Shown: in pieces, positions 32,139 through 38,278 of the stretch
Numbering within the stretch: the first letter of the stretch is position 1
How the letters are laid out: every line of letters starts with the position of its first letter
Origin: a virus
IMG/VR virus record: IMGVR_UViG_3300046722_000089
Location: 1-38,278 of that record
Reading direction: 5' to 3' (one strand)
DNA length: 38,278 bases
Made by a program: the position numbers and the translations under genes
The notes under the pieces: model-generated
Databases searched by the model: none
Told to the model about the DNA's origin: nothing
What the model saw: only the letters and a program-made list of their open reading frames with translations

Positions 32139-33542
32139 TTAATTTTTATGTTGCTCTGGTAATGAAAATCCTTTTAGTTCTCCGTAAGCTTTGTTTAGCA
32201 TGTACCAATCGTTTAAATCTTTAAATTTAATATGCATAGTTCCTTTTTTAAAGAACTTCATTTCAAAAAATCCCCATTCATACCATGTATTAGGTAAAAT
32301 ATTTATTTGGTTTGGTTTGCCGTATTCAGGATTTTTAATACTATTCCAATTGTATATCCTACCGTAATTGTCGTAATTTTTTGCAGTAATATTACAAAGT
32401 ACTTTTATAAGATCATCCATTTTATCGCTACCGTAAGAAGAATAACGCATACTTAAACCTTCTCTATTATATTTTTCTTCTACCATACCATTAACAATAA
32501 ATTTTTTGTTAAGCATGTGCCCCGAATTGGTTTTCCATCCCTCAATATTGTACCTATTTTCGTGGGTATGTTTTGTAAAATTGTCTATAGCTTCCTCTAA
32601 AGCCCTATTGTAAGTATTTTGCCTTGTACCTACAATTATTTGAAACATTCTATAAATGTTTTTCATTGTAAACGGAACTTTTTCCTGTGTTTCAACAAAT
32701 TTATTTATATCCTTCATAACTCCAGAAGTTACATATTTATCCATCTTCATTGTTGAAAAAATATATTTCCATGATTCTTTTTGAAGAGTTTTAGAAAAGT
32801 CTTCTTTATTGGCAACTGATTTATTGTAGCCTATTTGTAAATCAATTTTACTCATGTTTATTCCAGAAAGTAGTCTATTTACGTTTTCGACTTCTTCTTT
32901 CATTAAATCGAACGCTTTCATTGTTCCAACGTATCTATTGACCAAAGCTCTAACTTCATTAAATTCCATTATTCCAATACCTTGCTCCTCTTCTTCATCT
33001 TCACCCATAAAAAAGCCTTCAAATTCGGCTCCTTCGCTTAATATAGGTTTGTAAAGTTTTATTAATCCTATATCAATTCCCGTGGTTCTTTCAGCAGTTG
33101 AGAATACATCACCTATATTTTCTGTAATTCCGTTTTTTAATATTACAGAAAGCTTGCCGTATCTATTGAAGTTTTCAATTGTTTGCCAATTACACAAAGA
33201 AACTATTTCGCAACCTTCAGGAGCAATTTCCCATGCATGCAAAATATGTTTATGTGCATCACTAAAAGGAGGGTTCATATAAATGCAGTCAACATGAGAA
33301 ATCATTTCAGCTGTACAATTAAAAAAATCTTCTCCTATTAATTTTATCTGTTTATCTTTTAAAATAGACTGACATCTTTCGTTTATTTCAATTGCTATAA
33401 TTTCTTTTGCCCCTATTGTTTTGCTATACTCTAAAATATTTCCAAATCCTGCATGAGGATCTAAAACAATTTTTCCTGTGCAATCAAGTTGCATAATTTC
33501 TAATACATGTAATGGTGTTGGGTAAAGTTCATCGTGATACAT
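32139..33542 (-). CDS. N6-adenine DNA methyltransferase with DUF4942 domain
   Basis: I start at the ATG at 33540-33542; a longer frame would begin at a TTG next to the promoter's -7 box. The 467-residue protein has SAM-binding motif I DPHAGFG (28-34), IEIN (51-54) and catalytic motif IV NPPF (90-93), characteristic of N6-adenine methyltransferases. The C-terminal part (about 225-460) resembles DUF4942. No restriction partner is adjacent, so it is probably an orphan methylase that protects phage DNA or regulates packaging. It has its own promoter (33571-33600). Confidence 0.82.
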   Translation of the reverse strand: MYHDELYPTPLHVLEIMQLDCTGKIVLDPHAGFGNILEYSKTIGAKEIIAIEINERCQSILKDKQIKLIGEDFFNCTAEMISHVDCIYMNPPFSDAHKHILHAWEIAPEGCEIVSLCNWQTIENFNRYGKLSVILKNGITENIGDVFSTAERTTGIDIGLIKLYKPILSEGAEFEGFFMGEDEEEEQGIGIMEFNEVRALVNRYVGTMKAFDLMKEEVENVNRLLSGINMSKIDLQIGYNKSVANKEDFSKTLQKESWKYIFSTMKMDKYVTSGVMKDINKFVETQEKVPFTMKNIYRMFQIIVGTRQNTYNRALEEAIDNFTKHTHENRYNIEGWKTNSGHMLNKKFIVNGMVEEKYNREGLSMRYSSYGSDKMDDLIKVLCNITAKNYDNYGRIYNWNSIKNPEYGKPNQINILPNTWYEWGFFEMKFFKKGTMHIKFKDLNDWYMLNKAYGELKGFSLPEQHKN

Positions 33543-33570
33543 AATTTTATTTTTATCGGTTATCTGAGTA

Positions 33571-33600
33571 CAAATATACAAATACTTTTTAGATATACAA
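33571..33600 (-). promoter_or_regulatory. Internal early promoter with TAAAAAGTATT element
   Basis: TTG (33598-33600), 19 bases, TATATTTG (33571-33578) on the minus strand. The spacer holds TAAAAAGTATT (33581-33591) in the same place as at 23312-23322, and the two 19-base spacers agree at 15 positions. It lies between the terminator at 33640 and the methyltransferase ATG. Confidence 0.78.
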
Positions 33601-34737: not shown

Positions 34738-35589
34738 CTATAAATTTAACATTGGTATTAATTCATTTTCAATATATTTTCGACAAGCTAAAACCATTTT
34801 CTCGGCTTTTTTAATGTAGGCTTCATCATATCCAAACTCAAAAACTTTCTTTCTTAGTGAATCAGGCAAATTATCGTAACTAAGCATTTCAACTGCGATA
34901 TCCCAATCTTCGATATCAGGTTCATCTTTACCTAAATCTCTGGATAAATCCCACGAAAGTTTATTTATTTGTTCTTCGCTTCCGTTTTCAAGACAATAAC
35001 ACAAACTACCTTTTTTTAATTCTTTCAATTCCTGGTAAACTTGAATTTGACCATAATAATTTTTATCCGCTTCTGTTTCAAAATAAGGGAATGTGAAACA
35101 ATCAAAAGGTACTTTTGCATCAATAACTACTTCAGGCGTATTAGTATCGTAAGTTCCTGTGAAATATTCGTTTTCTAATGGCTCTTCGTTTTTTACTAAT
35201 TCTAAGCCGTAATGCTTAGATATTCTTTCAATAGCCTTTTCCTCCATTGCTTTACCGCGAGCAAGGTATTTAGACCTAATGTCTTTTTTCTTGCCTGTAA
35301 TCTCAGAAATAAGCCATTCTTTGCAGTATGATTTTGCAGTTTCGCTTAGTATAATTTCATCGACTAACGGTAACAATATTTCTATTTCTTTTTCGGTTTC
35401 CGGAAGTTTAATATTTTCAATTTCAATTGCCGATTTACATTCCTTGTTTTTAAAACCGTTCAATCGTTCATTAAATGATTCTTTTTTAGACAAAGCATCA
35501 TCGTACTGCTCTTTATATGATTTTCCTGTGTGATTGGTCATTAATAAACCAATCTTTGAAGCCCTGCATTTAAATTTTTTTATCTCCAT
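34738..35589 (-). CDS. YqaJ/lambda-exonuclease-like recombination nuclease
   Basis: The 283-residue protein has the YqaJ core: ARGKAMEEKAIER (110-122, Glu116 or Glu117), FTGTYD (143-148, Asp148), VIDAK (155-159, Asp157 and Lys159) and YYGQIQVYQEL (178-188, Gln181). This is a PD-(D/E)XK 5'-3' exonuclease for double-strand-break end resection in phage recombination. It overlaps the Cys-rich microgene by 20 bases and forms a cassette with the conserved protein at 35697. Confidence 0.85.
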   Translation of the reverse strand: MEIKKFKCRASKIGLLMTNHTGKSYKEQYDDALSKKESFNERLNGFKNKECKSAIEIENIKLPETEKEIEILLPLVDEIILSETAKSYCKEWLISEITGKKKDIRSKYLARGKAMEEKAIERISKHYGLELVKNEEPLENEYFTGTYDTNTPEVVIDAKVPFDCFTFPYFETEADKNYYGQIQVYQELKELKKGSLCYCLENGSEEQINKLSWDLSRDLGKDEPDIEDWDIAVEMLSYDNLPDSLRKKVFEFGYDEAYIKKAEKMVLACRKYIENELIPMLNL

Positions 35590-35710
35590 CTTTTGAATAA
35601 TGTTTAAATTCTTTACAACCTAGTTTTGCTTTGTTTATTTTAGGATCTCGTATTTTACATGTTTTTTCTTTGTCACAATATCCGCACCCGATTTGGTCAG
35701 ACTGTTTCAT
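35570..35710 (-). CDS. Cys-rich microprotein A (46 residues)
   Basis: An ATG at 35708-35710 opens a 46-codon frame starting MKQSDQIGCGYCDKEKTC. Four Cys (9, 12, 18 and 32) suggest a zinc knuckle. Residues 7-29 match microprotein B at 36220 and are encoded by an exact 68-bp nucleotide repeat (35628-35695). The flanks differ. It overlaps the exonuclease gene by 20 bases and the upstream gene (35697) by 14. Confidence 0.7.
   Translation of the reverse strand: MKQSDQIGCGYCDKEKTCKIRDPKINKAKLGCKEFKHYSKDGDKKI
35628..35695. repeat. 68-bp perfect direct repeat, copy 1
   Basis: Bases 35628-35695 are identical to 36278-36345 (offset 650). The repeat encodes the conserved core of Cys-rich microprotein A. 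Sequence outside the repeat differs quickly, pointing to a recent duplication or a conversion tract. Confidence 0.9.
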
Positions 35711-36215
35711 CTTGCAAAGCTTTTAATTGTTCTTCTGTTAAGTCGTATTTTTCCAAAATTGCTTCAAGTGTAGCTTTTTTGTCCTTTATAGCTTTTTTAG
35801 CTCCCACCAAATCTTTTAATTCAACCAACGGCAAAACATCGATAGTCATTGGAATACGTTTGTTTTTCGAAGCTGTAACCAAAACACGTGTTGATTCTGG
35901 TAAATGTGAAGCGTGGCTAATTCTGATTCCTCCCGTTTCTACACCCGCCCATTTTACCGTATCATCACGATAAATTGTTAATCTTCTGCCGTGGAATATC
36001 GAACTTTCAGAACCCCACAATTGCACCAACACTCTACGCATTGATTTGCACGGCTTAAAAGGCTTGTTGTTGTCTCCGTAGAAGTAAATTGATACGGGTT
36101 GCGCTTCATCTTCGCCTCCTTTGATGTTTCTAATTTTAATTGTTTTTGACCCCGATATTAAATCGTCTGCGTTTAATTGGTCAGATTTTGGTATAATTGT
36201 TTTTGATAAGTCCAT
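35697..36215 (-). CDS. Conserved phage protein of the recombination cassette
   Basis: The 172-residue protein begins MDLSKTIIPKSDQLNADDLI, the signature start of a widespread phage family of unknown function found near recombination nucleases. Later features are PVSIYFYGDNNKPFKPCKSMRRVL in two pieces (about 40-64), GGIRISHASHLP (about 94-105) and a helical, Lys-rich C-terminus. Context beside a YqaJ exonuclease suggests a single-strand DNA-binding or annealing role, but the sequence itself does not prove this. It lies exactly between the two copies of the 68-bp repeat. Confidence 0.65.
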   Translation of the reverse strand: MDLSKTIIPKSDQLNADDLISGSKTIKIRNIKGGEDEAQPVSIYFYGDNNKPFKPCKSMRRVLVQLWGSESSIFHGRRLTIYRDDTVKWAGVETGGIRISHASHLPESTRVLVTASKNKRIPMTIDVLPLVELKDLVGAKKAIKDKKATLEAILEKYDLTEEQLKALQDETV

Positions 36216-36219
36216 AATT

Positions 36220-36360
36220 TTATTTTATTGGTTTTTTAGTGTTTTCAAAATGGTTATAATCTTTACAGCCTTGTTTGGCTTTGTTTATTTTAGGATCTCG
36301 TATTTTACATGTTTTTTCTTTGTCACAATATCCGCACCCGATTTGTTTTTGTTCTTCCAT
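36220..36360 (-). CDS. Cys-rich microprotein B (46 residues), paralog of A
   Basis: An ATG at 36358-36360 opens a 46-codon frame starting MEEQKQIGCGYCDKEKTC. Cys at 9, 12, 18 and 32 match microprotein A. Both share an identical core but differ at the N-terminal six residues and after about residue 29. A and B bracket the conserved recombination-cassette gene, and B lies 4 bases before it. Confidence 0.7.
   Translation of the reverse strand: MEEQKQIGCGYCDKEKTCKIRDPKINKAKQGCKDYNHFENTKKPIK
36278..36345. repeat. 68-bp perfect direct repeat, copy 2
   Basis: Second copy of the repeat at 35628-35695, in the same frame and orientation within Cys-rich microprotein B. Recombination between the copies would delete the gene at 35697-36215 and fuse A to B. 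Confidence 0.9.
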
Positions 36361-36377: not shown

Positions 36378-36527
36378 TTAAATTATTTTACTGAATGAAT
36401 AGGTTGTTGAAAAGAAGCCACGATTTTTACATGTGAGTATCCATCCTTCACTCGTTAATTTGGTTATTGTGTTTTTCGCTTTAGATACCTTTCTGTACGG
36501 TATTTTTATGTGGACTGTGATGTACAT
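36378..36527 (-). CDS. Hypothetical 49-residue basic protein
   Basis: An ATG at 36525-36527 opens a 49-codon frame beginning MYITVHIKIPYRKVSKAKNT. The product is a basic beta-type sequence with one Cys and an aromatic C-terminus (GFFSTTYSFSK). It is 2 bases from the previous stop, which supports translation. No family recognised. Confidence 0.55.
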   Translation of the reverse strand: MYITVHIKIPYRKVSKAKNTITKLTSEGWILTCKNRGFFSTTYSFSKII

Positions 36528-38151: not shown

Positions 38152-38278
38152 TGCACTAAGTATTAATTTGTTGTAAAGATAATAATTATTTCGTTACGGC
38201 AACGCCTAAAATTTCGGAACTAACGGCAACTTTTTGTAAAATCTGTAAATAACGTAACCTATAAATATTATTAAAGTT
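38152..38278. repeat. Right copy of 127-bp terminal redundancy
   Basis: Identical to bases 1-127. It shows that the two ends join, so the operon order is continuous across the junction: lysis genes, terminator, early promoter. Confidence 0.95.

Follow-up and report, generated by a model that had tools for sequence, protein, structure and literature searches.

Two short four-cysteine genes in a phage genome share an identical core, probably through recent recombination

How two short genes of one phage came to be identical over 68 nucleotides, while their ends differ, is the question raised by the locus described here. The analysed stretch of DNA, called the window below, is 38,278 bases long; it is a virus record with an exact direct repeat of 127 nt at its termini (1-127 and 38152-38278). 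A terminal repeat of this exact length is the mark of a circular contig assembled with k=127, and the window is probably a complete circular map. Among named phages, its capsid protein matched Tenacibaculum and Flavobacterium phages best, at 49% identity across 95% of the query and 59% across 77%, and its terminase matched Flavobacterium phages best (45% identity); the hosts are probably flavobacteria. The genes of interest follow one another on the minus strand in the order m2, 172-aa gene, m1 and exonuclease gene, m1 overlapping the 172-aa gene by 14 nt and the exonuclease gene by 20 nt (Table 1).

Table 1. Positions in the window of the two microgenes, their shared tract and the neighbouring genes
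Feature	Coordinates	Strand	Basis or position
Microgene m1, 46 aa, four-Cys protein	35570..35710	-	between 172-aa gene and exonuclease gene
Microgene m2, 46 aa, four-Cys family, second sub-lineage	36220..36360	-	4 nt upstream of 172-aa gene
172-aa gene, phrog_11517, function unknown	35697..36215	-	profile match
Exonuclease gene, 283 aa, phrog_5715	34738..35589	-	profile match
49-aa ORF	36378..36527	-	upstream of m2
Exact 68-nt tract, copy in m1	35628..35695	-	repeat search
Exact 68-nt tract, copy in m2	36278..36345	-	repeat search
Diverged homologous continuation of the tract in m1	35592..35627	-	partner is 36242-36277

The exact 68-nt repeat within m1 and m2 had been claimed in an earlier note on this DNA, and both its existence and its coordinates were confirmed. 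The two copies lie in the same orientation at a spacing of 650 nt and are embedded in 104 nt of 91% identity. The terminal repeat aside, no further exact same-strand repeat in the window exceeds 18 nt (three pairs of 16-18 nt were found), so the tract is not due to chance. The start codons of both ORFs lie 15 nt ahead of the tract, and its reading frame is the same in the two.

The same note described the tract as bracketing a recombination gene. The copies do flank the 172-aa gene; the recombination label holds solely by association, through a neighbour whose product matches an exonuclease family (E 5.1e-33, residues 6-275). The 172-aa protein itself matched its family over residues 1-160 (E 1.3e-49), and 184 named phage records contain relatives of it. 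When three of these records were opened, two showed an annotated exonuclease or endonuclease next to the gene, and the third showed hypothetical neighbours only. A structure search with the AlphaFold model of the protein (pLDDT 80.5) gave no significant PDB match (best E 0.052, Z 4.5). A single-strand DNA-binding protein with an OB fold was considered as a candidate identity, several of the weak rows (Trbp111, PrgE, HIN domains) being OB folds. A profile search against PDB sequences returned one match (E 0.23), which was judged to be chance. As for the exonuclease gene, two lengths were seen in the window and L002-L034, 281-284 aa (the form of the window) and about 216-237 aa, mixed among near relatives; the short form seems to be without the stretch before residue 81. 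Elsewhere in the window, the product of 32139-33581 (480 aa) weakly matches methyltransferases at its start and contains a DUF4942 domain (E 2.6e-23); it also matches phrog_32703 (E 6.2e-139).

The products of m1 and m2 belong to a family whose 15-row alignment contains 12 invariant columns (Q6, G8, C9, G10, Y11, C12, E15, C18, N26, A28, C32, H37), four of them Cys and one His. Near members are 43-55 aa long and some members are longer. Over the core codons, m1 differs from the gene at the same site in L034 by 8 silent and 0 amino-acid-changing differences, and m2 differs from the L084 gene by 10 silent differences and 1 amino-acid-changing one. The mostly silent differences indicate that m1 and m2 are both real genes, and the excess of silent changes that selection acts on the micro protein.

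In IMG/VR, a scan with one alignment detected 14 loci and a scan with another 13, all of the latter on contigs that the former had also found; diverged members may have escaped, as both scans require a motif that is nearly exact. A scan of bacterial genomes detected a single locus, L095. Within 395 genomes of the phylum of L095, six matches at E up to 0.01 were obtained, of which one was the genome of L095 itself and five were partial (E 0.002-0.004) and taken as chance. At E limits of 1 and 0.5, no match was found in the named phage collection (queries m2, L085, L090 and L094) or in the plasmid collection (query L095). The family reached no curated cut-off in Pfam and NCBIfam, and nothing convincing was found for it in PHROGs, PADLOC or the PDB sequences. 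The weak matches set aside were TrbK (L091, E 0.0046), a Toxin_18 model (L086, E 0.014) and CDCA (L085, E 0.29) in Pfam; LarAH (L093, E 0.0047) and SoxR (E 0.05) in NCBIfam; phrog_23489 (m2, E 0.23), phrog_4541 (L090, E 0.063) and phrog_13498 (L092, E 0.085) in PHROGs; and PDB chains with a best E of 0.028. Among the titles listed in literature searches, none concerned this family, and absence from print is not claimed. In phages, this family is rare and accessory, and its presence is scattered.

Of 461 relatives found with the 172-aa protein, the best 80 were taken, and at the m1 site the junctions were compared in the nearest 33 (L002-L034). Between the 172-aa gene and the exonuclease start, the junction was direct in 27/33, counting L022, which ends shortly past it, and L018, whose 172-aa gene ends at a shifted stop. 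A micro gene was present in four relatives (L006, L023, L031, L034), and the two others showed a different insert (L030) and a deletion fusing the frames of the 172-aa gene and the exonuclease (L024). Direct junctions, that of L003 included, are 121 nt shorter than the window at m1. The left junction of the micro gene is common to the window, L006, L023 and L034; L031 differs in junction and tail, which suggests a separate event. On a tree of the 172-aa gene, micro gene presence requires 4 changes and a single clade of the window, L006, L023 and L034 was rejected (AU p 0.0003), so the insert at this site has been lost, gained or exchanged several times. Shuffled labels were equally clustered on this tree in 111 of 500 cases, its L030 branch is long, and recombination inside the 172-aa gene, the halves of which are unevenly identical, could blur it. 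In the micro gene of L006 (2313-2450), a TGA in frame stands in place of Gly10, a residue invariant elsewhere, owing to decay or to a sequencing error.

At the other site, m2 was absent in 32/32 relatives with some upstream sequence, L013 and L021 showing 105 and 122 nt only. The earlier note had named relatives with two diverged copies as evidence that would speak against its reading of the identity; among 45 related records searched whole, many of them fragments, one copy was found in 16 and two in none, against two in the window. The gap between the 49-aa ORF and the 172-aa gene measures 22 nt in L002 vs 162 nt in the window (140 nt shorter), and the flanks of the m2 site are 85-88% identical in these two. 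DNA homologous to the 49-aa ORF adjoins the empty site in L002 and is also present in L003, where the gap upstream of the 172-aa gene contains different sequence. The last 15 nt of m2 also precede the 172-aa gene in L003; the tail of m2 was perhaps written over the leader of that gene, but a tail resembling that of m2 occurs in L084 at another place. The 121- and 140-nt inserts hold only the 46-aa ORF and encode no nuclease, transposase or integrase, by which an autonomous mobile element or a homing endonuclease was ruled out.

Five relatives have, upstream of the 172-aa gene, a short hairpin whose loop reads CTGACC and whose stems differ in sequence (L014 3956+/3907-, L021 79+, L028 3957+/3909-, L032 1882+/1836-, L033 3113+/3065-; the plus-strand hairpin of L032 was identified by eye). 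In four of the five, a second hairpin lies on the opposite strand, 46-49 nt off. The scan also matched unrelated places (21 distinct of 294 loop sites across all loci), the same scan found no such hairpin in the window, and no Rfam family matched it; it is perhaps a regulatory RNA or an operator motif.

To compare the core with what follows it, seven sequences were used: m1, m2, L006, L023, L034, L031 and L084. Between m1 and m2, 0/68 core sites differ, and in the next 34 nt, which are homologous, 9/34 differ. The other 20 pairs differ at 6-17 of 68 core sites, with silent differences outnumbering the other codon differences in 19 pairs and equalling them in one. The claim of the earlier note that the identity is recent or kept by conversion is supported by these counts. 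Past the tract, the sequences closest to m1 are the same-site genes of L006, L023 and L034 (2-3 of 34) and the one closest to m2 is L084 (4 of 34), whereas the window core differs from the same-site genes at 6-8 of 68 sites and from L084 at 11 of 68. As to the direction of the exchange, the evidence is divided: at the two core sites where all three same-site genes agree against the window, the window matches L084, yet its core taken together lies closer to the same-site genes. A run-length permutation gave p values of 0.0009, 0.0006 and 0.0004 for the identical run (5, 7 and 11 sequences, respectively), to be read with the facts that it treats sites alike, ignoring differences of constraint along the gene, that the case for conversion depends on silent sites in a small number of sequences, and that a core more constrained than the ends lengthens the identical run. 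As the tail of m1 resembles the same-site genes and that of m2 resembles L084, this mosaic is better fitted by partial gene conversion than by a plain recent duplication.

We thus consider it rather likely that m1 and m2 represent two sub-lineages of an accessory family, that their cores recombined recently and that the micro protein is a metal-binding adaptor or modulator. Short genes for Cys4-His proteins would drop into tight gene junctions and leave the neighbours unbroken. Accordingly placed, m1 would have entered where the stop of the 172-aa gene overlaps the exonuclease start, and m2 in the variable gap that precedes the 172-aa gene. A recent recombination event, either gene conversion within the genome or exchange with an incoming copy, would then have made the 68-nt core identical, the agent being perhaps the recombination functions of the phage itself.

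The main rival to conversion is a recent duplication that placed a copy of m1 in the upstream gap, or a copy of m2 at the m1 site, after which the ends diverged fast or were replaced. The identical tract with its shared orientation and spacing, the start codons at the same distance from it and the occurrence of m2 in the window alone are what a duplication would leave. However, the 9 differences past the tract change the amino acid in 6 codons while 68 nt remained without a silent change, and m2 is closer there to L084 than to m1. Because the ends have diverged, the plain form is not favoured, and we regard duplication, with later replacement of the ends, as unlikely but deserving of serious consideration.

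A further reading makes the family itself a minimal mobile gene, a conserved core of ~70-100 nt that phage annealing recombination carries from phage to phage and from site to site, and whose frame is completed by the boundary where it lands. The micro gene of L031 ends in HYQDETV, QDETV being the end of the 172-aa protein in relatives without the insert, and the stop of m1 falls within the exonuclease start; both would be snapshots of this process, to which we give a small chance.

Very improbable, in our estimation, is an artefact of assembly or strain mixing, in which the microgenes of two strains were joined or homogenised by the assembler. The record does come from a public contig collection and no second record with the same 68-nt core was found in a collection from which near-identical records may be missing; however, the terminal repeat points to a k of 127, which exceeds the 68-nt repeat, and the flanks match relatives on both sides (those of m2 match L002, as given above, and those of m1 match L006 at about 84%).

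The earlier note had also proposed that recombination could delete the enclosed gene. Such an event is possible, as the loss of 650 bp would turn the two microgenes into a single in-frame ORF of 46 aa, and it was not seen: a search with the exonuclease, which made no demand for the 172-aa gene, gave 26 loci (24/26 contigs, by name, already found via that gene), with the 172-aa gene upstream in 25, the remaining locus, L143, being cut at the contig end. In all 25 informative loci this gene immediately preceded the exonuclease gene or was separated from it by one insert. With no loss in these 25 and at most one copy in each of the 45 related records, so that the arrangement is not conserved, direct repeats serving as a functional switch that removes the 172-aa gene are extremely unlikely.

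Returning to the favoured reading, recent recombination between two accessory genes, the neighbourhoods of the family bear on the role of its product. The micro gene lies directly ahead of the exonuclease gene in the window, L006, L023, L031 and L034. In L085 and L090 it directly precedes a phrog_3657 gene, behind which lies a gene of 700-709 aa; that of L085 matches FtsK-like and exonuclease families and its L090 counterpart is 55% identical. In L095 it comes after the end of a gene 67% identical to the C-terminal part of that of L085, and owing to these homologous genes, L085, L090 and L095 constitute one type of context. An exonuclease gene is found upstream of it in L086, with three small genes between, and its other neighbours are a primase (L084), a terminase (L089, L093) and a polymerase exonuclease subunit (L092). 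The link to DNA metabolism is common, not universal, and the members near terminase and primase genes argue against a dedicated role in recombination.

The invariant Cys and His residues suggest a metal site. The earlier note had proposed that the four-Cys core may be a zinc module partnering the cassette proteins; the invariant residues are in keeping with metal binding, and the occurrence of family members beside primase and terminase genes weighs against such a partnership. From the alignment, the micro protein most likely binds metal via C9, C12, C18 and C32, perhaps with H37; its structure model is poor (pLDDT 60.7). As a best guess of low confidence, it would act as a small adaptor in phage DNA metabolism, or as a modulator there.

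Known systems resemble this one in part. Moron-like accessory genes and boundary mosaicism are known from tailed phages. Like such genes, the micro gene is optional and small, lies between conserved genes at stop/start junctions and occurs in scattered relatives, the m1 site being occupied in only 4/33 near relatives and the m2 site empty in L002. Unlike them, m1 overlaps both neighbours and one genome has two copies sharing a core. A weak likeness to the SoxR [2Fe-2S] region (TIGR01950, E 0.051 for m2 and 0.13 for m1) was noticed. SoxR/MerR [2Fe-2S] regulators combine a CX2CXCX5C cluster motif with a DNA-binding domain; membership was ruled out by the CX2CX5C spacing of the micro family, its 46 aa without a MerR domain and a score of 13.3 bits vs a cut-off of 116.9. 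Similarly, QIGCGYCkkEktC aligned with QFTCPFCNHEKSC of an Elf1-type zinc ribbon (PDB 1wii and relatives; E about 0.045, 23 residues). The Elf1 ribbon has two CxxC knuckles, while the micro family has one CxxC followed by single Cys at 18 and 32, and this fold was also ruled out.

Taken as a whole, the locus is a modest addition to what is known of phage mosaicism, together with a small protein family undescribed in the libraries searched. It delimits that four-Cys family and, within one small phage genome, offers a readable case of what is probably partial conversion of one accessory gene by another, the sites being empty in near relatives. Should the core prove to be mobile on its own, it would illustrate how small a piece of sequence suffices for a phage gene to travel.
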